From positions 13,910,466 to 13,974,465 of the forward strand of contig NC_092322.1 of assembly GCF_036785885.1 (NCBI RefSeq): DNA of 64,000 nt, read 5' to 3'. The DNA comes from Coffea arabica (lineage: Eukaryota; Streptophyta; Magnoliopsida; Gentianales; Rubiaceae). The position numbers were made by a program, and so were the translations under genes. Position 1 is the first letter of the stretch. Every line of letters starts with the position of its first letter. The notes beneath the pieces are model-generated. The model made no database searches. It had not been told where the DNA came from and was given only the letters and a program-made list of their open reading frames with translations. Positions 20,912-52,874 of this stretch are shown in pieces.

Positions 20912-20947
20912 GGGATGTTGTTGCGGTATGTTTACAAGTCAAAACAG

Positions 20948-20959
20948 AGGTGTGGAAAG
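20948..20959 (+). repeat. Inverted terminal 12-mer, left
   Basis: AGGTGTGGAAAG, 36 bp inside the left border; its exact inverse is 36 bp inside the right border (52,827-52,838). Probably the conserved core of short, diverged terminal inverted repeats, and a candidate transposase-binding site. Confidence 0.7.
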
Positions 20960-21267
20960 TTAAGGGAAAAGACATTCAAGCATTTTGGGCCACAAACGCT
21001 AGGGGAAGCGTGTTGGGCGGGCACGTGGAAAGGGCTTTTGTGACGTGCAATCGGAAGATGTATTGGGCATTGAAGGGACTCCAGCCGCGCATGTGAAATG
21101 TGGAGGGGCCGAAATTAAGCAACCGGAAAAGTGAGGGTTTGTACGCGAAAGTACGGCAGGGAAAAAAGGCGCGAAGCTTACTGGACAAGCTAAAGAGTGT
21201 AGGCGTATTAGAAAGGAAGAAGCGCCAAAACCGGAGCAGGAGGAATAGCAGAAGATAGGGATTTGTT

Positions 21268-24200
21268 ATGGAGCTGGCGGCGGAAATAGATGCTTCGGAT
21301 ATGCAGTGGGACAGTGAAGGAGAAAGCGAAAATGTAGTATCGCCGATGCATGAGAGTGGAGCACCTTCAAATTTTAAAAGTTGCAGCCGTGAAAGGAAGG
21401 CCATTCGTCGGACGGCGGAAACAATGGTAGTATCGCTGATGCATGAGAGTGGAACACCTTCGAATTATAAAAGTTGCAGCAGTGAAAAGAAGGCCATTCG
21501 TCGGACGGCGGAAACAATGGTAAGCCACTCAACTCATTCCGTGAAGAATATGGTGGATTGGATCTCGGATGAGCAGCGGCAGGCTGTCAGAGAGTTTGGA
21601 TTCGGGTCAATTTTGAATGTGAAGGGAGTAGAGGTTGACGAAGAGATGTTGAAGTGGCTGGTGGATAACTTTGATGTAGATCGGAGGACACTGAACGTTC
21701 ATGGGTACTGTCTACAGGTGACAGGCGAGGATGTGGAATGTGCACTTGGCTTGAGCAGCCGTGGGAAAGATATTGAAAGCGAAAAGCGAAGGCAAGAGAT
21801 GGATACAGAGTTGGAAAGAGAATTGAATATCAGAATAAATAGCGGTGAAATTGTAGTGGAGGAATTGAGGCACAGTATATGTAGTTTGCATAAAGAAGGC
21901 TTAGAATTCAAAGTGAAGTTCGTACTGTTTGTTGTTGGTAGGTTGTTAGCACCAAGTTTGGATGACACAGTGAGCCGGGCTCTGGTGGGTGTAGTGGCTA
22001 CAGAGGAGAATATGGAAAATTTGAACTGGTCGAAATTCATACTTGACAATTTGGTGAAGAGCATCCGTGATAGAGACGGCAACGGAATAGCGGGATGTGC
22101 ACTTTTCTTGATGGTATAAGAAAGACGCACCATTTTGTATTAGAGATAGGAATTGCTGGAATAATGAAATTAAACTTTGATAGAAAAGACCCGTAAATGA
22201 TGGTAGGCGTTTTTGTCCGTGCAGATTTACTATCTGAAACGATTCTATATCGAGGGTGAGGACGAGTTTCGCAAGTTCCAGCCGAGAGGGCCGAGGCTAA
22301 GATTTTGGGGAAGGTACGAGATTAATGAAAGCGTGCGAATATTGAGGAGGAATCACATATTTGAGGGGGAACAGGTAATGTAAAATCCTTTCGTGTGAAT
22401 TGTTGTTGAAATTGCAATCTGCATTTTGTGACGTTACTAGTAGTACAAAACTGAAGGCTTATAGTGACAGGGCAATGTGCAGTTTTACAGTAACATAAGC
22501 TGTAGAGAAGACATTGATAGAAGACTGATTGAAATTGAATGTGGTAATAAAGATGTGAAGGATAGTATTGGTATGTGAAGGATAGTATTGATAGAATGGA
22601 AGCAATGATTGAATGTCGTTTTGAAAGGCTGAGGAGCATGTATGAAAGTGGAAGGGTGTGCAAAACAAACCGGGCAGTTGGTGTGGAGGGTGGGCAGAAG
22701 GACGATTGGCGCGGTAATGTTAAAAGAGGGAGTGAGTTACATAAATTTAGTCCTACAACGCCAGATGTTAGGTCCAAAAGCAGGAGTGAAAATGATAGAG
22801 TCACTACGAATAGTACTGTAATTGGTGAAAAGAGTGCATCGAAAATTACAAAGTGGAGGAGTAGAAAGAGACTAAGGATGGACAATACGGAGAAGCCTGT
22901 GGGGGAAGACAAACAAAACAGAAGGCAAGGTAAAAGAATAAAGGTATGCATCGGTTTGTGCCAAGGTATTTGTAGCATTAGAAAAGTAAAGTATAAATTG
23001 TAGTTTTATGTACAGATGGATAGCAGTGCGATGAACAAGTGTCAAACGAAGATCGTTGCTTTATTGGCAAAGGTGAGTATTCCAACGTTCCAGAATTACT
23101 GAAGTATGGGAAATTATAGACAATGAAAGATGACATATTTTTGTGGTAGCAGGAAACAAGGCTGGCATCTATCGGGGAAAAATTGAGTGAGGGACGAGCA
23201 AAAATACTGAAGTTCTTGTTTGACACTCAGCTGTCGCAAGGGTATGTACTGGAACATGGATTTGTTAAATCAATAGTTCTATTTTGTTTTATCCTTTATT
23301 TGAAATTGCAATGGGAAAGGGGACAGAAAAGTATTTGCAATTATAAGGTTGACTAAATATGTAGTATGATTATCCCCATAGGGGAGAGGGCATAGGAACG
23401 AAAATCTTCGAAACAGTTAAAATTGGTTTACAAGTGAGCATAAAACTTACAATTTGTGTGCTGTCAATCATGCCACCTTATATAAAAAGCAAGGGTAGGT
23501 AACATGGTTGCATATAGAATAAAAGGTGAGTATTCCAGAAGTTTGAGAATGGAAGTACAATGATAACTGAATGACCCTTATGGTGAGTACATAACCGCCT
23601 TAGGCTAACTCAATGACCGTAAGGACCGATTGGGTCATTGAAACCGTGATTGCTGGTTGTATTAGTGAGGAAGAGCGAACCTACTCTGGCCGTTTTAACT
23701 CGAGTGATTGAAAATGATGATATCAAATTTGTAGATTATGAAACTGTAATACACATAGGGAAAAGATTAATGTACGCTGTTGTAATGACAGGGAAGTACT
23801 GGTGTCAATTAAGGGGCAGACAGCAAGTCGGGATGCAATGGGGTCCTTGCTTCCTGAAAAACCCATGGCATGTGATGTGAGTAAATCGAGGGATTGAAAT
23901 TGGGTGGTGTTGTGTGGACTGTTTCACGGAGGACGAAATGATGTGAGTTGAGTTTGGTGCAGATAATCAATTGCTATTGTGCGATGAAAACAGCAAGGCA
24001 GCAAAGGCGTCCTGACGATCAGTCAATGCGATGGTGGTTCATGCCAACTTGGTTTCAGGTACAAGTGTTCGGCCAAAGTTGGGGGGTGTGAGTACGTACA
24101 TTCATATTAAAATGTCATATTTGACTGTCGTGTTGTAGCAAGAGATTTTGGAGTTCAACAAATCAGCAGACGAACTGTACTGTACATATCTACAGGAATG

Positions 24201-25067
24201 TAAAGTAGGAGGTAATATAAAAAAGTGTGAGAAGGTACGAGCAGCTGCCCTGTTATGTAGCATAATGGAATAGATACAGATGCCACGATGATGACTAACT
24301 AACCGCTGCTATGCTTCAGATATTCGTGCCAATGTGGCACGATGAGCATTGGTATATGTGTGTGGTGGACATGGGAAGCGAAGAAGTATTAATTTATGAT
24401 TCAATGAGAGGAGACGAGCAAACGGATATGAATAGGCGCAGCTCCGTGGAGACAGTGGTAAACTAAGTTGGTTTGTCAAATATTTCATGAACACGACCAT
24501 CACCTTTACAATTGGTGGCAGTAAACTTAAAATTGCATATGTTTTTCTTGTATGGTCGTCAGATTGAAAGGTTGGAAGCAGCGCTGACTTATGGTTTGGA
24601 GGGGCAGTATTCGTCATGCCTTTGGCTGTACAAAATAAAAGCTGCAGCCACATGTCCACAGCAAATGAATGCGTAAGTTGCACCTGCATAGTTTTGGAAG
24701 TTTTTTCCATAGTTCAGCAACGGTTGTGTCTAAATTTGTGGTTATGGTTTGTAATGCAGGTGGGATTGTGGATTATTCATGCTGAAGTACATGGATATGT
24801 TATCAAGTGGAATTGGAAGCTGGAAATAGAATCAGGTAAGCAAAAAGGAATGGCGTCGTGTGCTGTAACAGTAAGTGTGTTTGCTTGCTTTGGTTACGAA
24901 CGATGGAGATAGTAACAAATTTATCGGCGCAGTACAATTCGGAGCAGGAGCGGCGCAAAGTAGCACTGTCTTTGGTTTTGGATGATGCCAACGTTGTCCG
25001 TCATCAAATTATGCGGAAAGCGAACATCCACAGGAGGTTGGAGATGAATAAAGTTGAGGTTGGATGA
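21268..25067 (+). CDS. Ulp1-type (C48) cysteine peptidase gene A, spliced
   Basis: A multi-exon gene. Exon 1 (ATG 21,268 to about 22,119) encodes the N-terminal domain usual in plant Ulp1-like transposon passengers (VDNFDVDRRTLNVHGYCL; DVECALGLSSRG). It contains a 31-residue tandem repeat. Later exons cover YYLKRFYIEGEDEFRKF (22.2 kb), a basic linker (22.58-22.95 kb), ETRLASIGEKLSEGRAK (23.15 kb) and the peptidase: WFMPTWFQ (about 24.04 kb), catalytic His and Asp in MWHDEHWYMC...IYDSM (24.33-24.41 kb), and Gln and Cys in CPQQMNA/WDCGLFMLKYMD across an intron (GCGTAAG...GCAG, 24,676-24,759). C48 enzymes cleave SUMO or similar Ub-like modifiers. All four catalytic residues are present. An in-frame TAG (24,827-24,829) precedes the last exon (YNSEQERRKVALSL...), so the C-terminus of about 45 residues may be lost. 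Confidence 0.8.
21334..21519 (+). repeat. 93-bp in-frame tandem duplication in peptidase gene A
   Basis: Two adjacent 93-bp copies (21,334-21,426 and 21,427-21,519) each encode VVS(P/L)MHESG(A/T)PSN(F/Y)KSCS, then a basic stretch ending RRTAETMV. They keep the frame and differ by only a few bases, so this is a recent duplication that lengthens the N-terminus. Confidence 0.9.
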
Positions 25068-25599: not shown

Positions 25600-26270
25600 C
25601 GATCCGATTTGATCGAACAAATAAATTAGCCATACATAGCTGGTGTTTTATTGCAAACCGTGTTCAATTAAATTTTATCCGATAAGTGACTTTGTAAGTA
25701 TGGGATATTGGTACTCTGTTGTCATAGTGGAGGAAATTCATAAAGAACCGGTGTTTTATTGGAAAACGGGTTTAATTTACATTAAGCTGATAAATGAATA
25801 TTTTTTTAACGGAGAATGGTTACCTTGTACTTATAACAGATGTTACAATTAAAGAGTTGGTGTTTTATTCGACAACGGGTTTAAGTACATTTCATCCGGT
25901 AAATACATGTGTTTAAGGCAGCAGGATACTTTATCAGTGTAACACGGTCGCAAGCCATAAAGAGCTGATCTTTATTCAACAACGGCTTTAACTATATTTC
26001 ATCCGATTTAAATACATTTGTATTTGATGCACGTTGGGGAGTGTGTCAGTTTAACGGATGAAAGCCTTAAAGAGCTACTGTGTTATGAACTACGGGTCTA
26101 TTTTTTTGGTTTTCGAAAAATGAATTTGTATTTGAGGAACTTGGGTACTGGTGCCCGTATGAAGGAAGAAAGGCATAAAGAGGTTGACTTTTATAACACA
26201 ACGCCTTCAACTAAATTTTGTGTGATACAAAAATTCATTATTCGCACTATATCATAAAATAAATTTCTAA
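25600..26270 (+). repeat. Array of about 108-bp tandem repeats (plus orientation)
   Basis: About six diverged units. Each holds a core like GCCATAAAGAGCTGGT followed by TTTTATT, then AACGGGTTTAA, TTTATCCGATAAATA and GGTACTCTGTT. The cores lie near 25,631, 25,738, 25,848, 25,955, 26,063 and 26,170. Open frames across the units are short and not conserved. The same unit recurs at 26.56-26.83, 32.93-33.43, 36.3 and 52.1-52.6 kb in this orientation and at 40.1-40.6 kb inverted. Confidence 0.85.
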
Positions 26271-26454
26271 ATGCACTGCAAAGCTTTGTCGGTGGCCCTG
26301 TGTCATGTACTTTGTGGGATTTCCAGCAAGTTGACAAATCAGAAAACTGGACTTTCTTCCGTTCTTCACCCATAATTCATCAATAACTAATATTTTTCCT
26401 CTCTTCACCCATAATTCACCCGTAATTCTCTTGTTCCGTTCTTCACCCATAACT

Positions 26455-26850
26455 AATATTTTATATAATTATAATTATATAATTTATTAATATTATATAC
26501 ACATATATATTATACAGGATAATTTCACAAACCTCCCCTGAAATAGCGTTTGAAAAAATGGGAAACTGGATAATTTATGGAGGAAAGCCATAAAGAGCTG
26601 GTGTTTTATTAGAGAACTGATTTATTTTATTATTTTTCGATAAATAAATTTTTTTTATGGAAAAGGGTACTCTGTTGTTATAATGGAGAAAAACCATTAT
26701 TGGAAAACGAGTTTTTATATATTTTATCCGATAAATAAATGTATTGGTGGAAAAATGGGTGCTTTGTTCTTATAATGGAGGAAGGTCAAAAAGAGCTGGT
26801 CTTTTATTGGAAAGTGATACATTCTGCTGTTATACGCAAACCAGAATATA
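26455..26850 (+). repeat. AT-rich block, MITE-type terminus and three tandem units
   Basis: ATAATTATATAATTTATT-type DNA leads into GGATAATTTCACAAACCTCC (26,517 on), then three units of the 108-bp family (cores near 26,586, 26,690 and 26,785). The whole block is similar to 32,820-33,310, so it is a duplicated module of the element. Confidence 0.7.
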
Positions 26851-26959
26851 ATAGCAGTATTTGCTGCAGGGATCATAGAATCCAGCCAATTACATTTTCT
26901 AATTGAAACCGTTCGGCAATAAACGCATCGCTTGCACTGTCTACACAAACAGGCATTAT

Positions 26960-27255
26960 CTGGTCAAACCACGAACTTCCCATGAAGTTTCTCCTGTTTC
27001 AATATTCCAATAATAGACTGAACCATTTTCTTCAAGCAAGACAACCTTCCAGCCTGAAGTCACATCCAAAACAAGGGGTATGTCCAAGCTGCTGGGTATG
27101 TTACCTGTTCCGTCAAACCATTTGCATGATGGGAAACATCTGTGCCTGCATCATGTGCATCCCTTCAATAACGTAGTCCAACGAATGCATGAATACAGGC
27201 CCACTAAAGTATTGTAAGTTCTCCAAGCCTGTCAGCAGCTTAGACATCCCCATTC
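26960..27255 (-). pseudogene. WW-domain gene fragment
   Basis: On the minus strand about 27,125-26,960 reads FDGTGNIPSSLDIPLVL, then DVTSGWKVVLLEENGSV, then YYWNIETGETSWEVRGL and a stop. W, the YYWN aromatic triplet and TGETSWE are the signature of a WW domain, which binds proline-rich ligands. An upstream stretch (about 27,255-27,110: MGMSKLLTGLENLQYFSG...) looks coding in another frame and may be a neighbouring exon. Only a small part of a gene is present, between tandem arrays and the phosphatase gene, so it is best read as a fragment captured by the element. The parent protein is not identified. Confidence 0.6.
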
Positions 27256-27832: not shown

Positions 27833-29193
27833 CTAAAGCACAAAAGTTTTGGTTGTGTGTCCCATCAGAAGAGAGGTACTCGCCTTCCAAAGGTTTGGAG
27901 AAGCTTCCGTACACTGAACAATGATCTTCCTCATGCTTTCAAATTTTCCTTTTTTTCTTGGTCTGTGCATATGAGCAGACGCAATTTTAGCTATCATAAC
28001 GAGGTGTTGAACTATTGTGAACATATTCCTGAACATGAATGCAATGGATACCTCCGGATAATATCTGTTTGGGGCTTCCCGTTTGCGCGTCACTCGCTTT
28101 GCTGTGTTCTGCAGTCCAAGCTTGCTGACAACATTAACATAAAAGTTCCACTCCACACTGCCTTCTGTTACGGGTGATTGTCCAAAACGGTTTCGCTTAA
28201 TGAAATCTTGTACATTATCGGCACTGGCCAATTTCTTCAGGTGTCGTACAAAATCTCCTTCAGGATCTGCAAATAAGTTTTGTGTCAGGCCAATCTTTCA
28301 CCCTGTGTAAACCTAGCAAAAGCCACATTTGAAAGCATCGCGAACCGCGTCTTACCCAAATAATTGTCTTCTACAGTGTAACATGTATAAGAGGTGGGGA
28401 AGATGGCATTGTACGGTTGAAGAATGAGTAATACGGAAACAGTTAGCCCTGATCATGTTGTTTGTGCATACCGGAACATATACAACATAACGATCAGCGG
28501 GTATGGTGCACTTACAGAATTAAGGAAGGATTTATACGGAGAATCATCGACTAATATCGTGTTAGAGCTGTTGTTCGACTTATATTCTCCCCACACATGT
28601 TGAAGGTCCTTAAACATCACCTTTTTGTCTGGATTTTCCCCAAGGCTAGTTTGTGTCATAGTGCACCGCGACTGATCCTGCGCAATATTGATTGTTCCCG
28701 ACTTTCATTTATGAGAAGTCTTACACACGGACTGACTACACACAATCGAAGTAATTTGTGAATGACATCTCACCCAAACAAATAACAGTCTCTGCTCCAA
28801 ACGTTCATTCATTTTTTCGGATAGCCTGTCCAACACTGGTTGAATGTTGTGGCTGCAGAAAGCACAGCTGTGTTGATTTAAGAACATAACAGAAAAACTT
28901 GTGGACGTTGTAGTTAACGAAGCAATTCAAATATAGGTTGGCGGATACCTTAGCTTTGATGACCAAACAGCCACCTCAAAATATGACAGACAGACCTGCA
29001 AAAATTCAAAGCAACGTGGTCTGAAGTTAAAGTCCCGATTTCTGGTCATCCTTGTAAATGGACTGCCCAGAAGCACTCCATTCAAATCAAGAATAAGAAG
29101 CTTCTTCTTTGAATCATTGGCGGACGCAAGTTCTGGCGGGCTTGTTTTCACCCTTGTACCTTCGGCTGGGGAAAAATTGAAGGCATACAGCAT
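27833..29193 (-). CDS. NLI/FCP1-like HAD phosphatase, five exons, apparently complete
   Basis: Start ATG at 29,193 (MLYAFNFSPAEG). Exons: 29,193-28,949 (KKLLILDLNGVLLG, motif I; ends VAVWSSKL), 28,852-28,774 (HNIQPVLDRLSEKMNE...LLFVW), 28,677-28,516 (DQSRCTM...KDLQHVWGEY...ILVDDSPYKSFLN, the motif III/IV DD), about 28,440-28,356 (AIFPTSYTCYTVEDNYL) and 28,266-27,833 (GDFVRHLKKLASADNV...). Most introns have GT-AG borders; the acceptor of exon 4 is unclear. The frame joins without stops, about 330 residues. The family holds protein Ser/Thr phosphatases of the SCP/NIF type. Motif I is DLNG rather than DxDx(T/V), so the second Asp is Asn; I recall this from plant homologues and it may weaken catalysis. 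It is a captured host gene, since introns are kept. Confidence 0.8.
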
Positions 29194-29801
29194 TTCAGCA
29201 CACGGATTTTGCATGTGAGATCCAATTTGAATGTCATAATGCGAAATCAAACAAGCGGAATTGGAAAGTGTAAAGCAAAGTTGTGGGCTCGAGAATATAT
29301 TAGCCAGATTTGTGAGCAGCAGCCCTGCAATAATATTATAGCTGGAGTAGAAAAGCAATTTGTGACCGCGATGGTCACGAGGAGATGCATCGGCACAGAG
29401 GTACATACACTTTTTATGGTTTCGTCTAAACAATGATTAATTTCGTACCAACAATTTGCTACAGCCCTAAAGAATTTAAAATTTAATATTGCCTTCATTC
29501 AGCACACGGATTTTGCATGTGAGATCCAATTTGAATGTCATAATGCGAAATCAAACAAGCGGAATTGGAAAGTGTAAAGCAAAGTTATGGGCTCGAGAAT
29601 ATATTAGCCAGATTTGTGAGCAGCAGCCCTGCAATAATATTATAGCTGGAGTAGAAAAGCAATTTGTGACCGCGATGGTCACGAGGAGATGCATCGGCAC
29701 AGAGGTACATACACTTTTTATGGTTTCGTCTAAACAATGATTAATTTCGTACCAACAATTTGCTACAGCCCTAAAGAATTTAAAATTTAATATTGCCTTC
29801 A
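29194..29801. repeat. Tandem duplication, 304 bp, two nearly identical copies
   Basis: Copy 1 29,194-29,497, copy 2 29,498-29,801. I see one substitution (GTTGTGGGC against GTTATGGGC). The repeat starts directly upstream of the phosphatase start codon and ends just past the 3' end of peptidase gene B, so the presumed upstream region of the phosphatase is doubled. The open frames within it are identical only because the DNA is. Confidence 0.93.
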
Positions 29802-29816
29802 TATGCAACGAACCAA

Positions 29817-32819: not shown

Positions 32820-33430
32820 CAATCTATTCATAATAACAAATGTAATTATGTATTTATATAATTTATTAATATTAATTACACATATATTATAAGGGATACT
32901 TTCAGAAACCTCCCCTGAATTAGCTTATGGAAAAATCAGAAAATGAATAATTTATGGACGATAGCCAAAAAGAGCTGGCGTTTTATTCAAGAACTTGTTT
33001 AATTTCATTTAATCCCATAAATAAATTTGTTGACGTAAATCGATTTTATTGTAAAGGGAAGCCATAAAAAGCTGTTCTTATATTGTACTGGAGTTTATTT
33101 TTATAAATTTATCCGATAAATAAATTTAGTTATAGCAAAAAGGATTCTCTGTTGTTGCCTGGAGGAAAGCCATAAAGAGTTCAGAAACATTAACGTAAAT
33201 CGATTTGCTTTTATTTTAGGCCATAAATAAAATTTTATTTACGCAAAAATGGGTACTCTGTTCTTATAATAGAGGAAAGCCATAAAGAGCTGGTCAATTA
33301 ACGTAAATCGATTTTATTGTACTTTTACCCGATAAAAAAAATTAATTTATGGCAAAACGGGTACTCTGTTCTTATCTATTTCCAGGAAAGCCATAAAGAG
33401 CTGGGCTTTTACGAGAAAGTGATACTTTGC
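32820..33430 (+). repeat. AT-rich block, MITE-type terminus and five 108-bp units
   Basis: Begins with the ATTTATATAATTTATTAATATTA-like block and GGGATACTTTCAGAAACCTC (32,893 on). Units with cores near 32,963, 33,063, 33,170, 33,282 and 33,390 follow. It parallels 26,455-26,850. Array units also contain ACGTAAATCGATTTTATT variants. Confidence 0.8.
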
Positions 33431-37509: not shown

Positions 37510-37713
37510 ATATTTATTATTGTATTCGTTCCGAAACATCAACTAAATAAGCAAGCAAACAAATGTGTTGACTACTGTTCGGGAAAACCTATTCCCTCCA
37601 ACCCCCCAAATTCGTGTTAAAGGACCTGTCCGTGGACACCGTGGGAAGGCAGTGTCCTTGTGTTTGGCAGGGATAAAGTTAGGCGGTGTACCGGAGGAGA
37701 TTAACCTTTGCGA

Positions 37714-39929: not shown

Positions 39930-40600
39930 AGTTAGGTTAGTGCGATAATAAGTCACAGTTGGCATTGCATCTAAATTTTTATTTGGGATAAATACAAGAA
40001 CCAAATCGCATGGATATTTCTGAATTGCACTACTCCGCTGTAGAAGACCAGCTGTGGACGGGTTCGGTAGGGATATGAGAACAGATGACCCATTAACGTA
40101 AACAGACATGTTTTTACGAAAACAATAATAACAATGATTTTTCGAAGAAAATACCAGCCTTTTATGTGTTTCCGCCATTACAACAACAGGGTACACGGAT
40201 GTCCCTTCTACAAAAACATTTGGTCGAATAACAATGCAACCGTTTTCGAAGAAAATAGCAGCTGGATGAAAAGCATTCCTCCATTACAACAAAAGAGTAC
40301 CCATTGTTCCATACACAAGAACAATGGAAGGGATAAAAAAAAACATTTTTTGAATAAAACACCAGCTCTTATAGAATTCGGAGTATCGTCCCTCTAAATT
40401 AATTTTAGAAGGTTAAAAGACCAGCTCTTTAAGTAGTTCCTACTGCAGTAAGTGTTGACTACCCGTTTTCCGAAAACACGTTATGAAGTTGGGATAACAT
40501 AAAATGCCAGGCAGTTCTCGCATAAAATACCGGCCATACTTGGCTTTCCTCCATTCAAGTCAACAAATATGTTTCCTAATCTAGGTCGAATGGGGCCATG
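39930..40600 (-). repeat. Array of about 105-bp tandem repeats, inverted orientation
   Basis: Units are the inverse of the family at 25.6-26.3 kb: the core appears as ACCAGCTCTT or variants near 40,150, 40,258, 40,362, 40,424 and 40,530, with inverse GTTTTC and GAGTACCC segments between. This is the only clear inverted array in the element. Confidence 0.7.
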
Positions 40601-43600: not shown

Positions 43601-44518
43601 TGTAATTGTTTTTATACTTATTATTTTTCCTATATTTCTATTCATTATGTACTTTAACATTTGTTGCTATGTATTTAACTAATGTTGTACACGTCCCTGG
43701 CTGTGCGTTGCACAGCCGAGTACCTCTACTATGAAATTATGTGGAATGTTATTTTGATTTCAAATATTAACCCGTGTCACATAGTAGTGTCATTGGAGCT
43801 GTGGCAACCCGTATTCGTTTATCGTCCGGACCATCCATTACAGGTTGCTTTTCAATTTTAGCTGTTAATGTCCCAAAATTGCGGTTTGTGTTTTTAAATT
43901 CAAAATTTTTCATCTTTTCTTTCTAATCCCCAATTTCCCCCTTGCTATAATGAAACGTTCGGAGACATTTAATTGCTTACGACGCGCAGGTTGGCCACCT
44001 GTTTCCTTAGGCGTCCAAGTAAAACTGAAAGGCCAATGAAAACATGCTTAGCACACGCGCCGTCCGTCACTGTAACACATATTTCCCAATGTGCAACCCT
44101 ACTTAGAAAGTACAAGGGCATTGCACGCCCAACCTGGCCACAGCCGTTCAAATTTCTCGCGAAGAAAGACGCCTACGCACCTACAAGGCCGCAACACTTA
44201 ACGGCAAAGCTGTTCATAATCGCGGGTGGGGCGACAGGGATTTTGTGATAGGCTGCGCCGTCACAATATTCGTCCAAAATCCAACTCCAACAGCCGTGCG
44301 ATGGGCAGGCTCCATCGCTACCGGCCACCGCGTGATGAAGAACACTCGCAAGAACTGCTGGTTGATCGGAAAAATCACATATCACACATTTTCCTTGCAC
44401 AGGGGGTAAATGTTGCAGAATCAATGTCCACAATTACTTGTGCTTATTTTGCCCTAACTCCTCATTTGGTTTATACATACATATAAATGGCTGAATTGGT
44501 TCTACATTAATGCACAGG
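40601..44518. other. Long stretch without a recognisable gene
   Basis: 40.6-41.2 kb is moderately GC-balanced with short open frames on the plus strand (41,005-41,203) and no domain. One array-like core (TTAAAGAGTTGGG) lies near 41,240. 41.4-43.7 kb is strongly AT-rich. At 43,704-43,722 a perfect 8-bp-stem hairpin (GGCTGTGC-GTT-GCACAGCC) stands out. 43.9-44.45 kb has short open frames that might be upstream exons of the PMD gene; I cannot show it. Confidence 0.4.
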
Positions 44519-46540
44519 AAGTCTATTCAATTTATCCTAGAGGGTCGTCAGTCGAAATTATGGAGTGGTGGAAGAGGCTGCCTCGTAAGGTGGCCGCGAA
44601 AGTTGTTAGTGCTGGGTTTGGGGATTTTCTGAGCCACTTGCCCCTGGCCGATAGGGATAGGAAGTTGCCTGTCGCACTTGCGGAGCGATGGTGGGACTCA
44701 ACAAACTCCTTCCACTTGCCTTTCGGAGAGATGACACTGACACCCTTGGACTTCACCTGTATAACCGGTGTTGCAGTGGGAGGCTTGCCCATTCCGTGGG
44801 ATTACAATGTTAGGGAAAATGCCAATTACATCAAGGAGCAATTGGGTTGGGTGCCAACTTTTGCTTCTGCCGGTGCCATCAGAGTTACCGATATATTGTC
44901 ATTCTACAAAGACAAGGCGATTGACGAGAACGACGACGTCCAGCTGGCACATCTGACTAGAGCTTTCTTTCTACACATGCTTGGCCGCACTTTACTTAGC
45001 AACACGGCCGAAACAATTAACCTGTGCTGTCTGCCTGCGCTGGAGGACGTAGATCGTATAGGGGATTATAACTGGGGAGGGGCGGGGATGGCAACCTTGT
45101 ACAGATTTATGTCCGCCGTCTCCCGACGCCTGACGAAAAGCCTTGGCGGCTACAGCTTCGTTTGGGAGGTAAGTCCAGAATTGCCTTCACTCTGTGTCAA
45201 TTCGACATTTCCATGTTCCGTTACATAAACTTTTCTGTCAGTTAGTGTTCATCTCCAACGGTGGACATAATTTGTACGACCACGTATAGGTGTGGGCTTA
45301 TGAAATTCTTCAGTTAAATCCGTATAAACTGAAACAGGACGAGAGGGACATATTGCCCACAATGTGGCGATGGTGCTCGTGTAATAGAGCCAACCGACAA
45401 TCACCGTCTACGGTCGAACATTTTCGCCGCGCAATTGACACCATTAACCCGGAAGACGTTAGTTCCCGTACTTAGAACATCCATTAGTTTCTACCGCTGA
45501 AGTGTTATTTTGATGTTATGAATTTGTTCCGCCTGTTGAACAAATCAAAGGTACTTACGCTTGTTAATTGTGTGTCATAGGTCAACTGGCTGCCCTTCCC
45601 TGCAATGGCATTGCCGAGTCGGTATCTCAAATCCAAGGAACTAACTGCAACGAGATTGCTTTTGGATGGCCCCATGGGAAGATTTTACTACCTGGGCGAG
45701 AGGGTTATTAGGCAGGTGTATGCAGGTGTATGTGCAAAGCAACCTCCCCATCGGCCATCAGATATGTACAGCACTGATACAATTTCGGGAAACAGGCTAC
45801 ATGATGTGCTTCATGGACTGCCCATTGCAAGCCTATACCCTGATCCCCCTCCATATGCTACGTATGACGAGTTTGTGCGCAGCAGGCTAATGAAACCAAT
45901 GACTTCCTCCACGTTGGCACCCAGTGGGAAGGAGTGCGTAATTCATATGTGTGACCAGTTGCCACTAAGTGAGGCTACAACACCGTCACTGAAACATCCA
46001 ATTAATTACCCTCCCTGGTCTGTTTTGTGCATACAAACTGATGGATCACTGGAGCAAGAGGGCATTCACAGAGTTGGTGGTGATGTAATAGGGTTGCCTC
46101 TTCCATGTGCTGTTGGTGATGTGGTATGGCATTCTTCGTATTGTACTTCACCCGCCATTTAATTTGCGCAATTTGTGTTAATACACCCATTTGTTTCCGC
46201 TTAGGTGCCTAGACACTGGTACGAGGACCTGCTTGTTCAGTGCATGGGCCTGAGAAAGAAAATCTTAGAAAAAAGTGCAGAAATATTTCGTTTGGCATCC
46301 AATGTGTCGGACAACTCACAAGTGCTGGACCAAAGGCTACGTCAAATACAGGTAATTTTGGAAACTGCATTCAAGCTCCAAAAGGCGACAGGGAAACGCT
46401 GCCTTCGCGGTGGAGTTGGTGGACGGGAATCATGTGTTTGTAAGCGTCCGAACACAAGTGCCGGGACGCAGACATTTACGGATGAGCTTGGTAGAGGCAA
46501 AGCTCACGAATGTCAGGGAATTCATAATGCCAAAGACTGA
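44519..46540 (+). CDS. Plant mobile domain (PMD) protein, four exons
   Basis: Exon borders: 44,519 (acceptor CACAG) to 45,168 (donor GGAG/GTAAG), 45,290-45,457, 45,581 to about 46,162, and 46,205-46,540. Exon 1 encodes the core of the PMD fold (MEWWKRLPRKVAAKVV; WDSTNSFHLPFGEMTL; CITGVAVGGLPIPWD; YNWGGAGMATLYRFMS). Exon 2 gives VWAYEILQLNPYK and exon 3 VNWLPFPAMALPSRYL. Exon 4 is a coiled-coil-like tail (LRKKILEKSAEIFRLA). PMD proteins occur both in host genes (MAIL1/MAIN type, heterochromatin silencing) and in plant transposons; their biochemical role is unsettled. First in-frame ATG is 44,560; an earlier exon may exist. No internal stop is seen in exons 1-3. The end of exon 3 is uncertain. 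Confidence 0.78.
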
Positions 46541-48994
46541 GCACCCATGGCCCCTAACCGCAAACAAGGTTGTGTAGTCGGAGGAATGAGTATGCAAACT
46601 ACTTGGGAGTCCCCACCAACAAAGCCAAGCTGTGAGCAATCGCCACGTGTGTTGTGTAATTCTGACAATTTTAAACTTTAACACAGAATATGTTAACAGT
46701 TGACAGATAATTCCTACAACTAATTTAGTCCTGTTCTTATTTTTCGTCTGTCCCAGATTGTTCTTCACCTGCAATTGAAGTTTGCAGTGAAATTAAATAT
46801 TTACAACAAAACAATTTAAATGGAACTTGTTGTTACTATAAATCTTCACATTTAATGCATTAAGTTTTTCCAACTTATTTATATCATGACACAAAAGCCT
46901 TTTGTATGAATGCAACACGATATATAAGCAGGGTTTCAATTCACTACGCTAGTTAACCAATTTTTCATATATAAACAAATTTACTAAAATTAAAATAGCG
47001 TATTTCAAAGTTGCGCTTCTATTTCGAAGTCAATTACTCTTAAACAGCTAGTACTTAACTCATATAATGGAACAAACCCGTAAAGAACTGGTATATTATA
47101 GCAAACAATTTATTTTGTTTACTTTAAAATGTTTCATTTATATTAAATAATTCAAAAAATGCTAGTTTTCCTTTCGTAAACATGTCTCATTCCATTATTT
47201 CAATTGTATTTGCAAATTTTTAAGTATTTAACAAAATACTTAAAATATTTATAATGAAATGTTCATACAAAACGTGGTACTTCATTCATGTAATACACAA
47301 AAGCCATAAAGAGTTGGTACTTTATGGGACATTTTCTTTTTAAACTATTGTTGACTTATATTACGTAGATAACCTACCATTTTTTTGTTTCATAACAAAT
47401 TACTGTACCATTTTTTAAAAATGGTGCCTTACTCCCTAATCCAGCTTTACTTCATGTATTACTCTCTAAGTTTGTGACATTGTTGTTAGGCTTCATTAAT
47501 CACTGTAGATGCCTTTTTCTCCAACTAAATGGTAAATAATAAACCCCAACATCACTAATAAATCCCAACTTCATACCATATATTTGTAATTTTGGCCTTC
47601 ATGATGTCAGCTAAGGGACCCAATAACTCAAAGGCAACGGAGGTCAGTCAAATTTTGACAACCTCAGGGGGTGCCACTGAAAGTGTCAGAAATCTCAGGG
47701 GAGGTTTCTTAAATTATCCCTAATAAATATATTACAAACCACATCGTAATTGATAGTTATTGGCTAATTAAATATATTAGTACAAATGTATTAGTAAAGT
47801 TACTCGAACTAATTAATAATTTCTATTAGTACATTTGTATAATTAGTAGTATAATTTATAATATTAATTATATTACATAAATTAATATACATATATACAT
47901 ATAACTGATAATACCATTGTTATTGGTGCACTGAAGAGACGCATAAGCATTGTGAGCAATGAAAGTAGATGGGGAGAAACAGATGTTACTGTTCCAACAC
48001 CTGAATGGAACGATGGGCAAGAGAAAAGGCGTTGGGCCTTTTCGGTCATTGGTTAGGATAGCAAGGAGAGAAACAAACAGCCCATATCGTAAAAGCAGTT
48101 TATAGCAGCAGCGTAAGGCACCAGTTTACAAAAGCTGGGCAACTGAAGCTGATTCCCAAGTACCCACTAAGGAAACGTCTATCCCACCAAGAGATTTTGC
48201 GCAACATACGCTTCCACTTAATTTCCTATTTACAAAAAAGGAACAACTTTGGTTCCTCTAATAAACAATTTGTCAACTACTTACTCTCCTATTAACCTAT
48301 AAACAAGAGTTACCGGCTTCTGAGGGTTGCTCGGGGTTAAGGTTCGTATAAACTGTCAAAAAGTCTTACTGGCTTGACACAAAAAATATTAACCAAGTGC
48401 AGTAGCACTATTTGCTACTGCAGTGCTTACGACGCAACCTTCGGTGGAACTACAATGACTTACCCATGGCCTAGCAACCTTCAATACTCTTCACCCCACC
48501 AATACATAACAAAAGACAATCCCTCAAGCCGGTGTTGCTCTGTAACCTGTCTGTCGTCACGGCTGCTACTTCCATGCACAACCATACCATCTCTTTCAAC
48601 CTCTGCATTTCACACATTGTATAAGAATATATAATAGGATTTACACACGCAACAGCAGTGAAATAAGAACAACAAAGCCATTTACCAACAGGTACTGCAT
48701 CAGTACAATGACTGTTTACTACCTTTCAGTGGCTGTGGTCATAACAGCTTACAATGGCCCATGACACATTCAAACTTACATTATTTACACTTCAATGGTA
48801 ACGGAATCAAATTTTTTTAAACACCACCACAACCTGTACCCAGCATACCCCACATTCACGAATACCTTGTAGCCTTCTCATGCTCAAAACAAATTAATGC
48901 GAAGGAAAGATACAAACCGTTCCCCTTCTACAGTTTCGTACTTGTTTCATGGAAACACTACTCTTGCACCTCTACTCACCAAAACCTGCCTTAT
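46541..48994. other. AT-rich spacer with repeat remnants
   Basis: Single cores of the 108-bp family lie near 47,083 (CCCGTAAAGAACTGG) and 47,292 (GCCATAAAGAGTTGG). A MITE-type right terminus lies at 47,632-47,723 (GGAGGTCAGTC...CAGGGGAGGTTTC...ATTATCCCT). Beyond it is AT-rich DNA, then mixed sequence to 48,994 with no recognisable gene. Confidence 0.45.
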
Positions 48995-51795
48995 TTATTG
49001 CGTAACTGCAAACCGAAGCAAGGCCTCCAGTAGTGCCTCATCTTTCTCTTGGGCTTCTTTGTTGGTCACCTGTGTCCCTTCCACCGCTACCCTGTGGTTG
49101 TGGTACAAATGCTTGTCCTCTCCATTCGCCTGAGTCACTCCAGCCCGTACCAATTTCAAATGATTTTTCCAGCGAGTCATCCAAACAATTTTCCATATAA
49201 TCATCATTAACTGCTGTTGTTGTGCGAATTCTTTTTGTATGGGCATGTTCGTTGGTTGTGCCCTGCCTGCAATCTTCTACCCATATATCACATGTCAAAT
49301 AATTTGTGACTACAACTAATCACGTCAACTAAGCACAATGCTAACATTACACCACTTCAACTTTCTTGCATTGCCAATAACTTTGGATGCACTTTTAATT
49401 ATGTTTTTATTTGCTACTGTTGATAATAAGAACGAAAAATACCCACTTCTTCATTATTACCTTCACTGTCCACTTCATGTATTATATCAATTAACTACTG
49501 TATAACTACGTATGCAATTCCGATAGTACCTGCAATGACCACACTTTCTTTTCTTCTTTGCTTCTGCATGCTTGTGATCACCTTTACACCATGACACCCT
49601 GGGATCTAACAGCCCGAATGTTCTTCTACTTCTATCGTTCCTCACTCTTGAATCCATTGCAAATCCGTCTCCCCCATATCCCCTGTCAATCCACTTCTCC
49701 TTTAGGTCCACAGAATGCTTGTCAAACATCTGCTGCAGGTCATTAAACGCGTCATCCATGTAGGAGGTATAGTAACACATAGTATTACAGCTAGACTTTA
49801 AAGTGCCATATCTGGCCATTTGTGTCAGTTTTTCGTCTGCAACAAATGCGTTCATTCCATTATTAGTACAGTAAACTCCCTTTGTCCACCGCTTCGAAAT
49901 GCATGCTTCTGGGATCCTGTTCATTCCTTCTACCACCATCACGCGAAACATGTGAGCACAAGGAATCCCCTTTGACTCGAATTTCATGCAAGAGCAGATT
50001 AGATTCTCCATTGACCTATCATAATCCACCTTCCAACTTATTCCGTGTCCACCATATTTCGAGTAATAATACGTACGACTCCCTCCATCCTCGCTCTAGC
50101 CCTCAGAAATTAGAAGTCCTTGCCTGTTCAAATGCTTCCTCACCATGAAGAACACATTCCTTGTAAACACCTCCGCTGCGCTCCACTCTAATTCGGGCAG
50201 GATTGTGGTTAAGACTGGTTTTGTGTTTTCGCTTGTGTGAATTGCTTTGCTCTCAGTATGTCGAAGCCATGCTATTGCCAAATCAAAATTCTAACGAATT
50301 CATATAGTCGCATTTTTTCATTCAAGTACTCATTCAAAAAAGCATTCATTTTCTCACACCTTTGAGTACTTCTCATACCTGCAAAAAAATGACCGCGTAA
50401 ATAGGCCTCTGCCCATAACCTTCTCCTACGGTACAACTTCTTCACCCACTCATTCTCTACCACCCCACATTCATTAACCAACCTAGCCCACCGATCCTCA
50501 AACTCAAGAGTGCTACACTTTCTCTCCATCAGGTTATACAACCTGTTATTAAACTCCTCGCAGCGAATATTACTCCGTGCATTTCTATGCAAGTGCCACG
50601 AACATAGCCTGTGACAAGCATCTGGGAGAAGATTCTTTATGGCTCTTCGCATTGCACTGTCCCCATCTGTCATCACTGCTACTGGCTTTCTACCTTTCAT
50701 AGCCTCTACAAATGTACTTAGCACCCATTCATATGTTTGAATCCTCTCATCTGATAGCAGGGCACAGCCAAAAATAGTACTGTTCAAATGGTTGTTTACC
50801 CCTGCAAGTACAACTAGTGGCTTGCGGTATTTATTTGTTTTGTATGTTGTATCAAACACCAATACATCTCCAAATACACTGAAGTCCGCACGAGATTTAG
50901 AATCTGCCCAAAACAACCTTGCCAATCTTCCTTCGTTATCTACATGATATTTATAAAAGAACATCTCATCGGCATCCTTCTTCGCTGCCAAGAACCCAAG
51001 TGCCCCTTCTGCATCGCCATTAAAAATATCTTTTCTACGTTCCTCGTCCATTCGGTTATACAGATCCTTAATGCAAAATCCCACGTTACTATACCCTCCA
51101 GCTTTGATAACAAAATGTTTCATTATCTGGCATATTCTGACCCCAACCAACTTTAGACTTTTTGCCTGCGCATATTCTGCATCGCTCACTTTTCTATGCG
51201 ACCTAATGTGTTGCACACTTGCCTCTGATGCCAGCGGGTGATTGTGCTCCATAATGAAGCGTGTCACCACATACTTTACCGATTCTATGTCATATTTCAC
51301 GCGAAAGCAAGCCCCACACCCGGTTCTTGTGATTGGTTTTGCTTCTCTTTTCCGGTCTTCATAATTAAACCACTTTTCATTCCTATAATCTTCACAGCAA
51401 CATACCCATTTTCTAAATCTTGAAATGCCATCTGCATCTCGTTTGGCATTACTTTTACGAATCCCAAATCCGCTTAGTTTCGCATACAAATTATAGAATT
51501 CCCCAGCTTCTTCTTCCGTGTCAAATGTTAATTTCATTACGTCATCCACGCCTATTGCGCCCACCAATTCATTGGCCTCCTCATCTTCGTGTCCTCCTAT
51601 TGAACCACCGCTTTCTTCAATGAATGTGTGTCGGTCACACTCAGGTTCTTGGTTAAGGTCAAATGACCTTAACCTGCCGCAACCATCCATCCCCATTCTT
51701 CCGTTCTCTGTTTCCTGCACCATGTCATGAGTTTCAAAGTTATGGACAAAAGTACTCACCTTTGATTTCTCTACTTCTGTTCCGCGCCGCTGCAT
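48995..51795 (-). pseudogene. FAR1-type MULE transposase, one frameshift and one stop
   Basis: Starts at ATG 51,795. Order: acidic N-terminus; FAR1 DNA-binding WRKY-GCM1 zinc-finger domain (about residues 95-180: FYNLYAKLSGFGIRKS...KWVCCCEDY...CGACFRVKY...EHNHPLAS); MULE DDE transposase domain (about 270-500) with Asp in LVFDTTYKTNKY, Asp in VMTDGDSAMRRAI, CSWHLHRNA, and Glu in STQRCEKMNAFL. One base is missing near 50,285 (frame passes from FVRILIW to NFDLAIAWLRH), and TAG 50,098-50,096 follows. The frame then resumes through a SWIM zinc finger (CSCMKFESKGIPCAHMFRV). The C-terminus KKRKCGHC appears spliced (intron about 49,515-49,283) to a last exon (TTNEHAHTKRIR...), a degenerate zinc knuckle. 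This is the enzyme expected to move the element; this copy is inactive unless the two lesions are sequence errors. Confidence 0.88.
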
Positions 51796-52089
51796 TCTTT
51801 CACCACAGCTTCGGAAGGGCCTTCCTCAGATATATCTACCGTCACCGCCTGCGCCTGAATTTACGCCAGTAGACACCACCTCTGTCTATTCCGCCTTGAC
51901 TTCTTCTTTACCAAATTTTTGCCTTCGATTCCGACCTCACCACCTGTCTGCAAACACACCCATCACTGCGGGCCCCAACATGGCTGTGTGTTTAGTACCT
52001 AATACGCTTCCTCTTCGGTGGCCCCACCATGGCTTTGTTTAGTACACAAAGCTTCGTCTTCGATGTTTTATACAACACAACCGGCACCG

Positions 52090-52660
52090 ACGTGTTAATT
52101 TTTATGCTTTCCGATAAATAATTTTGTATTCAACGAAATTGGGGTCTCCTGACTGTCTGATGGACGAATGCCGTAAAGAGCTGGTCCTTTATAAGACAAC
52201 CGTTTTAACTAAATTTTATCCCATAACCCAACATTTGTATTTAAGGCACGTTGGCAACTCTGTCACTGTAATGGTTGACAGGCACAAAGAGCTGGTCTTT
52301 TACTCACCAACGGGTTTTGTTTCATTTTATCCTATAAATCAGTCTGTCTATATGGCACCGTCGGTATTATGTTGTTGTAATGGAAGAAAGCCAAGGGGAG
52401 CTCAAACTTTTAAACTGACACACCCGTTTGAATATAATAATGGTCCTCAAAATGGATTTAATCTTTAGTTGTAGTGCAGGAAAGCCATAAAGAGTTGGCT
52501 CTTTATTCAAAAATGCATTTGTATTTAAAATTTTCTATTTGCTAACATTTGTATTCGACGAAAATGGGTAGTCCGTTGTTATTATGGACGAAAGTGTTCA
52601 AAATTGGGGTTGTTTTAATAAAGTTAACGGGTTTATTTTTACTCCTTAGGCCATTATATT
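52090..52660 (+). repeat. Array of about 108-bp tandem repeats near the right end
   Basis: Cores near 52,170 (GCCGTAAAGAGCTGGTCC), 52,280 (GGCACAAAGAGCTGGTC), 52,390 (diverged) and 52,486 (GCCATAAAGAGTTGGC), with TTTATCCNATAA segments between. Same family and orientation as 25.6-26.3 kb. It lies between the transposase and the right terminus, where MULE subterminal repeats would be expected. Confidence 0.8.
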
Positions 52661-52826
52661 TATGTTAATTCCATTTCATCCCAATGCATTTTCAGCTTGT
52701 GCAGTACGCTACATTTCCAATGTCCAAACCGCGGTTATAGGTCATCACTTCCTTTCCTACAATTATTACCTTTCGCGTCCGTACTTGTCAGATTGCAACG
52801 TGGAGGCTTCTTTGCCATATTTTTTG

Positions 52827-52838
52827 CTTTCCACACCT
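52827..52838 (-). repeat. Inverted terminal 12-mer, right
   Basis: CTTTCCACACCT, the exact inverse of 20,948-20,959, ending 36 bp before the right border at 52,874. The matching distance from each end supports the border call. Confidence 0.7.
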
Positions 52839-52874
52839 GTTTTCTGAAGTTGCGAATGCACTACAGAAATTACC

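Follow-up and report, generated by a model that had tools for sequence, protein, structure and literature searches.

Organization of the Locus

The window analysed here, a 64-kb stretch of the Coffea arabica genome, contains an NLR gene region and, adjoining it, a large element with a transposase gene, about eight further gene modules and arrays of a ~110-bp tandem repeat (Table 1). The original prediction of at least eight cargo genes held as to number, with the qualifications that in none of five fetched copies did the alignments reach the WW domain and that two genes are broken here.

Table 1. Features of the element, its target site and the neighboring gene, with positions in the window.
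Feature	Position	Strand	Evidence
Whole paralogous copy of 717-bp target repeat (empty-site sequence)	7334..8050	+	self-alignment; 91% copy on C14
NLR gene region adjoining insertion	16032..20334	+	NB-ARC E=1.4e-55 (Pfam); orthologous on C14
Split target repeat, left part	20336..20912	+	self-alignment
Left target site duplication GAGGAGAAAG, 10 bp	20903..20912	+	self-alignment and junction reading
Whole element, 31,962 bp, start GGATGTTG..., end ...AATTACC	20913..52874		split repeat, ends common to other copies, homeologous empty site
Subterminal 12-mer AGGTGTGGAAAG, left copy, candidate transposase site	20948..20959	+	in pattern finding 61 left ends
ULP1-type gene, borders approximate	21262..24912	+	weakly DUF7745-like exon 21,262-22,116 and Peptidase_C48 exon 24,299-24,463
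Array 1, tandem ~110-bp repeat, 9 units	25628..26884	+	repeat-unit search
WW-domain fragment	26959..27150	-	Pfam E=3.8e-8
NIF/FCP1-like phosphatase gene, exons split by intron-like gaps	28130..29433	-	Pfam E=1.3e-5; second exon E=0.018, below cut-off
PF20167 (Transposase_32) gene and downstream Peptidase_C48 exons	30048..32423	-	PF20167 E=7.9e-23; 93% to P0125
Array 2, 6 units, upstream of PF20167 gene	32952..33937	+	repeat-unit search
F-box/TPR_27 gene	34291..35707	-	TPR_27 E=2.8e-10 and 2.9e-12; F-box E=0.084, below cut-off
Array 3, 2 units	36292..36419	+	repeat-unit search
GRF zinc-finger gene	37705..38133	+	Pfam E=6e-8, domain in first ORF
Single-exon orphan gene (218-aa protein), premature stop here	38911..39564	-	dN/dS 0.23
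Array 4, 2 units at E<=1e-3, opposite strand	40079..40370	-	repeat-unit search
Single repeat unit	41233..41319	+	repeat-unit search
Plant mobile domain (PMD) gene	44461..46537	+	Pfam E=4e-26; second stretch E=0.04, below cut-off
Array 5, 2 units	47064..47339	+	repeat-unit search
Transposase gene (FAR1 + MULE + SWIM), frame change near 50,290 here	49028..51738	-	Pfam; 95% to Coffea arabica P0001
Array 6, 3 units, upstream of transposase gene	52157..52590	+	repeat-unit search
Subterminal 12-mer AGGTGTGGAAAG, right copy, inverted	52827..52838	-	complement in pattern finding 87 right ends
Split target repeat, right part	52875..53032	+	self-alignment
Right target site duplication GAGGAGAAAG	52875..52884	+	self-alignment and junction reading

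With MULE (PF10551, E=5.4e-26) and FAR1 (E=1.5e-16) domains, and a SWIM domain just below the Pfam cut-off (E=0.0016), the transposase gene has the domain set of the Jittery/FAR1 type. It encodes a MULE-type DDE transposase, is broken in the window copy, and has close homologs that carry the name FAR1-RELATED SEQUENCE 5-like; the predicted Mutator-like nature of the element is supported by this FAR1 + MULE gene. The element is not a Pack-MULE, which would have no transposase of its own and captured gene fragments only, and none of 35 element ORF references scanned with Pfam contained a tyrosine-recombinase domain, as in the Starship captain.

In the left ULP1-type gene, the C48 exon reached E=5e-7 and the N-terminal exon is weakly DUF7745-like (E=0.002, below cut-off; Pfam). 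The C48 exons downstream of PF20167 scored E=4.5e-6 and, below cut-off, 7.5e-4 (Pfam), and probably form one gene with it. The second ORF of the GRF gene is probably joined to the first, and the PMD gene appears to consist of several exons. A piece of the F-box/TPR gene (~34,549-35,202) is absent from many scored copies and was found alone elsewhere.

The element shares with KIU/VANDAL elements both a ULP1 (C48) gene and tandem motif arrays in non-coding DNA. Units of ~110 bp numbered 21-35 in six giant copies, and 5 and 16 in two small relatives; none were found in 32 kb of flanks or in 30 kb around the empty site. The genome contains 555 occurrences of their 18-mer core and none of its reversed control; many of the 100 listed of these 555 lie outside paired giants, so the repeats are not limited to giant copies.

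Insertion Site

Self-alignment of the window showed that the predicted 717-bp repeat, with its whole copy, split copy and shared flanking sequence, is real: the whole copy matches the left part as two segments, with identities of 95% and 87%, and the right part at 94% identity. The predicted right end was retained, but the left boundary lies one base further in, at 20,913 instead of 20,912; base 20,912 is assigned to the target because the base preceding GGATG varies among other copies. The target duplication also exists as predicted, but by comparison with other copies it is 10 bp long (GAGGAGAAAG), not 9, and falls within the ~9-11 bp typical of the MULE superfamily. The 64-kb window has four + strand copies of the 9-mer GAGGAGAAA, at 7,893, 20,903, 39,809 (an extra copy within the element) and 52,875; its single - strand copy is at 63,136.

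Homeologous chromosome C14 aligns to 16,032-20,334, 20,324-20,911 and 52,876-54,871, the last two without the element between them. This is the orthologous empty site, adjoining the same NLR gene; such a site had been proposed as a check, and no piece of the element is present there. The insertion lies ~950 bp beyond the last LRR ORF (end, 19,963), in agreement with the position first given relative to the NLR gene.

Ends and Copies of the Element

There are just two copies of AGGTGTGGAAAG in the 64-kb window, inverted relative to each other; one lies 35 bp inside the left end as corrected, the other 36 bp inside the right end. When 200,000 pairs of 60-bp stretches were drawn at random from the element, 2 had a run this long at one offset; this test used the uncorrected coordinates (36 and 36 bp from the ends). 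Between the outermost kilobases, inverted matches were no better than E of about 0.5; the sole better one was internal (26.5 and 47.7 kb). The long terminal inverted repeats (TIRs) of TIR-MULEs are therefore lacking, and a 12-bp inverted identity is present near the ends; non-TIR MULEs are by definition without long TIRs.

Exact end patterns were matched by 61 left and 87 right ends in the genome (0 for the reversed-pattern controls), and by 69 and 98 after similarity matches were added. These formed 38 left-right pairs, 26 of which, the window copy included, span 28-40 kb (30.4-38.6 kb); seven same-ended pairs are short (5.0-11.9 kb). Pairing on the wrong strand or in the wrong order succeeded for 2 of 69 left ends each, and 31 of 69 left ends, like most right ends, have no partner. 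Exact 9-10-bp duplications flank 13 of the 23 junction pairs read; two pairs have displaced ones, one has 8 bp only (displaced) and seven have none. When left flanks were combined with right flanks of different copies, none of the 506 cross-pairings had an exact match of at least 9 bp at the ends (longest, 8). Five fetched copies at unrelated sites are colinear with the window element and cover 25.4-30.7 kb of its 31,962 bp.

The two ends thus do occur together and the orthologous site is free of element pieces, so that neither of the refuting outcomes named beforehand was observed. Relatives with the same ends and other duplications, for which a search had been suggested, exist at unrelated sites. 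The idea of one mobile unit is borne out by the empty site, the 26 long end pairs, the duplications at unrelated sites and the five colinear copies, but what was presented as a single insertion is not a one-off: it belongs to a multicopy family.

Cargo Linkage and Selection

The best 40 candidates scored gave 40 genome matches each for PMD (95-100% identity) and NIF (92-100%), and the best candidates for the orphan gave 40 near-full matches (94-100%) and one partial; the window is included in each set. Among these best candidates, PMD lies inside an end pair in 29 of 40 cases, beside a listed single end in 10 and elsewhere in 1; the corresponding numbers are 27, 10 and 3 for the orphan (n = 40), 21, 14 and 5 for NIF (n = 40), and 23, 12 and 2 for F-box/TPR (n = 37). 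None of these four was on the wrong strand inside end pairs. The cargo travels together with the element ends.

Ratios of dN/dS were calculated for six copies, with all pairs pooled and without a tree. They were 0.23 (0.14-0.35) for the orphan, 0.31 (0.21-0.47) for F-box/TPR, which is stop-free in all six copies, 0.37 (0.22-0.65) and 0.45 (0.24-0.91) for the PMD exons, and 0.58 (0.40-0.87) for the transposase exon. Judged by these ratios, the four genes show apparent purifying selection among the six copies, and the other tested regions do not clearly do so. Indistinguishable from neutral were PF20167 (0.71, to 1.12), its C48 exons (0.81), NIF (0.77, 0.41-1.71), GRF (upper limit 1.09) and the left ULP1 gene (0.73), the C48 exon of which gave 1.78 on 37 codons and the N-terminal exon 0.50 when read in another frame. 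In-frame stops occur, for example, in the transposase exon (3/6 copies), the orphan (2/6) and the first PMD exon (1/6). Values of dS are several-fold unequal among modules (0.05 for the transposase vs. 0.29 for F-box); therefore, either the copies are mosaic or some estimates are off.

Interpretation

Based on these results, we are highly confident that the window copy is a member of a giant Mutator-like transposon family in Coffea arabica, inserted as a unit with a 10-bp duplication and having 30-38-kb same-ended relatives at unrelated sites. In transposition, the FAR1/MULE (Jittery-type) transposase would bind AGGTGTGGAAAG, conserved at 35-36 bp from each end, and mobilize everything between the ends through a cut-and-paste mechanism with cuts staggered by 10 bp. 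The window copy should now depend on other copies, because its transposase and orphan genes are broken.

The PMD, orphan and F-box/TPR proteins, and perhaps the ULP1 proteases, may serve the element and not be chance captures, since the first three show purifying selection among copies; we consider such resident cargo probable. More speculatively, one element protein might recognize the tandem 110-bp repeats and protect the family from silencing, like VANC for Arabidopsis VANDAL, and small relatives sharing its ends and repeats might thereby be helped too. This parallel is drawn from two VANDAL papers (PMC5735166, PMC10398659), and the anti-silencing role is proposed tentatively. Equally tentative is the full model of an autonomous 30-38-kb MULE family as the plant counterpart of fungal giant cargo transposons. 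In it, selected resident genes for host manipulation (ULP1 proteases, a PMD protein akin to those used by the host in silencing, F-box/TPR and the orphan) would be combined with 110-bp arrays as an address tag, by which an encoded protein would lift silencing only from family members, small relatives included.

It is also conceivable, at a probability short of even, that the repeats are transposase-binding or structural sequences needed for transposition and not anti-silencing targets. Their presence in two small same-ended relatives without a tblastn match to the transposases tried is consistent with this; however, several arrays are distributed through the interior, as much as ~15 kb away from the closer end, the number of units varies among copies, and the end 12-mer AGGTGTGGAAAG is a better candidate transposase site.

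That the cargo consists of passive captures with no role for the element, as in Pack-MULE-like transduplication, appears unlikely. Host genes commonly contain domains of the NIF, WW, GRF and F-box/TPR kinds, the NIF exons have kept intron-like gaps, and constraint on NIF is unclear, all of which would fit capture. Against it stand the purifying selection on the orphan, F-box/TPR and PMD, and the mostly element-linked DNA matches of F-box, PMD, NIF and orphan, with no evident host donor among the best 40 candidates of each.

Growth of an ordinary 10-15-kb MULE to 32 kb at this locus by nested insertions or captures, with only the frame having moved, is very improbable. Small repeats inside (36.6-37.1 and 47.1-47.7 kb), the ~650-bp piece within the F-box gene, the uncovered WW domain and the seven short end pairs point in this direction, but the five copies at unrelated sites, colinear over 25-31 kb, refute it for most of the length, and the 26 long end pairs and the cargo matches, in or beside elements and oriented as expected, also argue against it; the WW region alone may be a later addition. 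Multiplication of a segmental duplication or genomic island by unequal recombination is the least credible explanation: local repeats do contain some of the copies (e.g., C9 left ends at 31.3-kb steps) and seven junction pairs lack duplications, but 13 of 23 have exact 9-10-bp duplications, the flanks are unrelated, and the clean empty site and duplication refute it for the window copy.

Comparison With Known Elements

Giant transposons that carry cargo are rare in plants, and the element is one such case; instead of the new kind of transposon originally claimed, it is better described as a giant variant of the known ULP1-carrying FAR1-type MULEs. Jittery transposases are of the FAR1/MULE type, VANDALs are mudrA-like and CACTA elements have another transposase; to our knowledge, Helitrons make no target duplications. 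The coffee element differs from KIU/VANDAL in its FAR1-type transposase and larger number of genes, from Helitrons, which are rolling-circle elements carrying fragments, in its target duplications, from CACTA elements in its transposase, and from Pack-MULEs in having a transposase gene on board and three cargo genes under apparent purifying selection.

In transposase type it resembles the grapevine Jittery-like MULEs Jitvine-1 (11.9 kb) and Jitvine-2 (14.4 kb), with no TIR length listed; some Jittery-like families, unnamed in the relevant passage, carry ULP sequences (PMC2528002). The coffee elements are 30-38 kb long, mostly with 10-bp duplications, in contrast to the 9 bp reported whenever duplications were found in that survey, where the longest family in the table is 17.7 kb (PMC2528002), and have two ULP1 genes together with PMD, F-box/TPR, NIF, GRF and orphan genes. 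Arabidopsis KIU/KAONASHI and VANDAL elements are described as non-TIR MULEs with a ULP1-type gene and one-orientation tandem motif arrays in non-coding DNA, units of which are gained or lost between copies (PMC13317346, PMC5735166, PMC10398659), resembling the coffee element; their motif is of 8-9 bases, whereas the coffee unit is ~110 bp with an 18-bp core.

According to one review (PMC6431247), Pack-MULEs likewise have host-type gene sequences between MULE ends, use transposase in trans and did not exceed 7 kb in a 2004 report. DNA elements of such size, or with multiple genes, are already on record there for plants and algae: maize Helitrons, which transpose by rolling circle, reach 39 kb and carry up to nine gene fragments, and Chondrus CACTA elements of 16-20 kb have 4-5 ORFs (PMC6431247). 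Fungal Starships are likewise giant, discrete, multi-gene cargo elements, but their class is described as set by a tyrosine recombinase (PMC12134995), whereas the coffee element has a MULE transposase and target duplications.

Overall, as our analysis shows, a MULE is able to move 30-38 kb and about eight genes, roughly twice the length of the longest MULE family tabulated in the grapevine survey (PMC2528002) and well above the 6 kb of cargo beyond which DNA transposition falls off, as given in the review (PMC6431247). In the window, this large and possibly methylation-changing insertion has an NLR gene as its neighbor. The selected-looking cargo, with dozens of element copies available in a single crop genome, makes the reason for the presence of ULP1 and PMD genes in MULEs testable.

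Insertion Site and Element Ends

According to our analysis, the 32-kb stretch adjoining the NLR gene is a real transposing unit, and its place in a multicopy family is well supported. Self-alignment of the window confirmed that a 717-bp repeat is present once as a whole and once interrupted by the element (see the table). The original prediction of an insertion with a target site duplication (TSD) held; comparison with other copies, however, corrected the TSD length from 9 bp to 10 bp (GAGGAGAAAG) and adjusted the element limits. The 12-mer AGGTGTGGAAAG is found 35 bp in from the left end, and an inverted copy 36 bp in from the right end; when 60-bp stretches of the element were paired at random 200,000 times, an equally long run at one offset (offsets from 20,912) appeared twice. 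Besides the two termini, no site in the window carried this 12-mer with fewer than two mismatches. Because the motif is thus confined to the two termini in the window, the interior repeat arrays are not ends of fused elements, and a compound origin was rejected for most of the length.

The homeologous chromosome C14 carries the same NLR gene as window 16,032-20,334 (91.6%), followed by a match to 20,324-20,911 (84.6%) that continues unbroken into 52,876-54,871 (91.6%), and a sequence similar to the target is present there once. On C14, the NLR match is separated from the target repeat by about 2 kb of sequence absent from the window. Judged by sequence, we regard this locus as the orthologous empty site, so that the insertion would most simply be younger than the split of the two subgenomes. 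Segmental duplication was rejected for most of the length on the evidence of the empty site and the TSDs.

Coordinates of features in the window and at other loci (C numbers denote contigs of the C. arabica assembly)
Feature	Location	Remark
717-bp repeat, whole	window 7,334-8,050	
717-bp repeat, interrupted	window 20,336-20,912 / 52,875-53,032	
Element	window 20,913-52,874	limits by comparison with other copies; predicted as 20912..52874
Mirrored GC skew	window 21,000-25,500 vs 48,500-52,000	positive at left end, negative at right end
304-bp tandem duplication	window 29,194-29,802	nearly perfect; immediately upstream of NIF domain exon
Piece in F-box/TPR gene	window ~34,549-35,202	probably a nested repeat; absent from many scored copies; solitary copies at C2:5.79 Mb, C1:4.99 Mb
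Related short MITE-like repeats	window 36,587-37,085; 37,412-37,520; 47,101-47,730; 9,149-9,234	in and outside the element
LINE-like ORF	window 9,828-13,991	1,387 aa; by sight
LTR retrotransposon, as read from its repeats	window 57,693-62,991	direct repeats of 284 bp (98% alike) at a distance of 5.0 kb; gag-pol-like ORFs by sight
Small element L062	C14:17,575,348-17,580,375	5.0 kb
Small element L063	C8:26,941,998-26,950,780	8.8 kb
End pairs without TSD	C10:9.69 Mb; C7:7.80 Mb; C3:24.9 Mb; C1:50.3 Mb; C11:22.2 Mb; C22:13.6 Mb; C22:45.1 Mb	
Four same-strand left ends	C9:8,890,285; 9,002,302; 9,033,632; 9,064,974	last three spaced at 31.33-31.34 kb
Four NIF-gene copies	C10:26.33-26.43 Mb	94%; within 100 kb; no mapped element end adjoining

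A Multicopy Family With Paired Ends

The genome searches covered the 1.198-Gb assembly, in which the window occupies C13:13,910,466-13,974,465. Exact end patterns were found at 61 left and 87 right sites (reversed-pattern controls, 0), and their combination with similarity matches gave at least 69 left and at least 98 right ends, which are lower bounds, as the best 40 of 183 left-end and the best 40 of 466 right-end candidates were scored. When a right end was required downstream of a left end, on the same strand and within 80 kb, 38 of the 69 left ends were paired and 31 had no partner, while the wrong-strand and wrong-order controls each paired 2 of 69. With the window copy counted, 26 of the 38 pairs were spaced at 28-40 kb (actual values 30.4-38.6 kb), and the remainder at 5.0-11.9 kb (seven pairs), 23.9 kb (one) and 48-77 kb (four).

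Junctions were examined in 23 of these pairs (the window, 20 others of at least 30 kb and 2 small ones). Exact TSDs of 10 bp were present in ten and of 9 bp in three; displaced TSDs of 10 bp (by 4 bases), 9 bp (by 1) and 8 bp (by 2) were also seen, and seven pairs had no TSD. None of the 506 cross-pairings of flanks from different copies reached 9 bp, and no flank was common to two copies at E 1e-5 among the 250-bp flanks, those of the two small elements being mostly too short. Four of the seven TSD-less pairs span 35.3-35.7 kb; in one such copy the left flank, the single one examined, is itself a repeat.

The four left ends on C9 are accompanied by NIF and orphan matches, with no right end or PMD match among those listed; from its sequence, this locus looks like a tandem array of the element without its right part.

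The Interior Travels With the Ends

Five copies fetched from the 37 other pairs were colinear with 30.7, 27.0, 25.4, 28.5, and 27.2 kb of the 31,962-bp element. In alignments of at least 150 bp, the closest copy was about 98% identical to the window element and the others mostly 82-97%; the WW domain was covered in none of the five. Growth by nesting at the window site was rejected for most of the length, given these colinear copies and the end-pair spacing.

The placement of cargo genes was evaluated against the 30 pairs of at least 30 kb and 25 unpaired ends (11 right, 14 left), a match being counted as beside an unpaired end when it lay within 45 kb in the right orientation. The best 40 candidates of each search were scored, and a diverged host donor could escape such a search. 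PMD matches fell inside pairs in 29 cases, beside unpaired ends in 10 and elsewhere in 1 (best 40); the corresponding numbers were 21, 14, and 5 for NIF (best 40), 27, 10, and 3 for the orphan gene (best 40; one partial match of 41 omitted), and 23, 12, and 2 for the 37 F-box/TPR places. The latter derive from 51 of 95 matches (>500 bits), two that matched only the lone 34,549-35,202 piece having been dropped. For these four genes, no wrong-strand cargo was found inside a pair. Counted by pair, PMD was present in 29 of 30 and F-box in 23 of 30, and the C11 copy scored without PMD does contain PMD sequence. The NIF matches lying elsewhere comprise the four on C10 listed in the table and one on C18.

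Gene Content and Selection

The Pfam scan covered 35 ORF references from the element. Above the cut-off were the transposase domains FAR1, MULE, and ZSWIM1-3_RNaseH-like, Peptidase_C48 twice (in the left gene and the PF20167 gene), Transposase_32 (PF20167), PMD, NIF, TPR_27 (twice), WW, and a GRF zinc finger; SWIM, F-box, DUF7745, DUF1985 (PMD exon), and further C48, NIF, and PMD stretches matched below it. F-box, WW, GRF, and NIF are protein kinds usual among host genes. The transposase is 95% identical to the C. arabica protein P0001 (representing 71 member sequences), relative to which the window copy has a frame change near 50,290. In Rhododendron, the gene model P0031 has a FAR1/MULE transposase joined to PF20167, and this suggests that the association of the two may be older than coffee.

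In the window copy, the orphan gene is interrupted by a premature stop; the orphan protein has four database relatives, all unnamed (best 96%). Predicted structures had a mean pLDDT of 34 for the orphan and 32 for the PF20167 protein, and profile comparison of the two gave a probability of 0.05%. A PDB search with two NIF ORFs returned one chance-like match (E = 0.68) for one and none for the other, and viral contigs queried with the orphan protein yielded nothing informative.

The dN/dS values were pooled, tree-free, over non-independent pairs of six copies (the window copy and five others). They amounted to 0.23 (95% 0.14-0.35) for the orphan, 0.31 (0.21-0.47) for F-box/TPR, 0.31 (0.08-1.09) for GRF, 0.37 (0.22-0.65) and 0.45 (0.24-0.91) for two PMD stretches, 0.58 (0.40-0.87) for the transposase exon, 0.71 (0.49-1.12) for PF20167, 0.77 (0.41-1.71) for NIF, and 0.81 (0.38-2.54) for the C48 exons of the PF20167 gene; the left ULP1 gene gave 0.73 (0.39-1.87) for the N-terminal exon and 1.78 (0.32-3.41) for the C48 exon. 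Read in its two alternative frames, the orphan gene yielded 1.58 and 1.67; the corresponding values for the left ULP1 exon were 0.89 and 0.50. Over all frames, the three non-coding controls ranged from 0.73 to 1.49. Stops interrupted the transposase exon in three of the six copies, the orphan and NIF in two each, and the first PMD exon, PF20167, the C48 exons of its gene, and the left N-terminal exon in one each; none occurred in F-box/TPR, the second PMD stretch, GRF, or the left C48 exon.

Comparison With Known Elements

Jittery elements are of the FAR1 type, CACTA elements have a transposase of another kind, and Helitrons, to our knowledge, make no target duplication. In a grapevine survey, the longest MULE family measures 17.7 kb, two multicopy Jittery-like families 11.9 and 14.4 kb, and ULP sequences occur in MuDR-like and some Jittery-like families (PMC2528002). 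A review gives at most 7 kb for the Pack-MULEs of a 2004 report, sizes reaching 39 kb and as many as nine gene fragments for maize Helitrons, and 16-20 kb for algal CACTA elements (PMC6431247); the last two sizes imply that size alone is not unheard of among plant DNA elements. The coffee element works like a ULP1-carrying non-TIR MULE but stands apart from such elements in size, in the number of its genes, and in existing as a multicopy giant; it is a giant form of this type. No title or abstract opening in the retrieved Coffea MULE, Mutator, and transposable-element literature described it, within a coverage thin for subscription journals and preprints, and giant-MULE phrases retrieved nothing from literature mostly outside subscription journals and bioRxiv.

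Repeat Arrays and a Putative Anti-silencing Role

A unit of about 110 bp with the core AAAGCCATAAAGAGCTGG is repeated 25 times in the window element, 21, 23, 31, 35, and 28 times in five other giant copies, and 5 and 16 times in two small elements. At E <= 1e-3, no unit was found in the window flanks or the C14 region; a laxer limit added one flank match (E = 6.1) and weak units near 40 kb. An exact search for the core, allowing C or T at a single position, found 555 sites genome-wide (reversed control, 0), and many of the first 100 lie outside paired giant elements. The small elements L062 and L063 share the ends of the giants, 10-bp TSDs, and the same arrays, and tblastn against six proteins (four of them transposases) gave no match; they are candidate non-autonomous relatives.

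VANDALs are mudrA-like elements. Arabidopsis VANC proteins bind motifs that lie in a single orientation within tandem repeats of non-coding VANDAL DNA (PMC5735166, PMC10398659), ULP1-bearing VANC genes are termed KIU (PMC13317346), and TE-encoded PMD proteins have been proposed as counter-silencing factors (PMC8616336). Because the design of the coffee element matches these VANC/VANDAL, KIU, and TE-encoded PMD cases, we hypothesize that the element may have an anti-silencing role.
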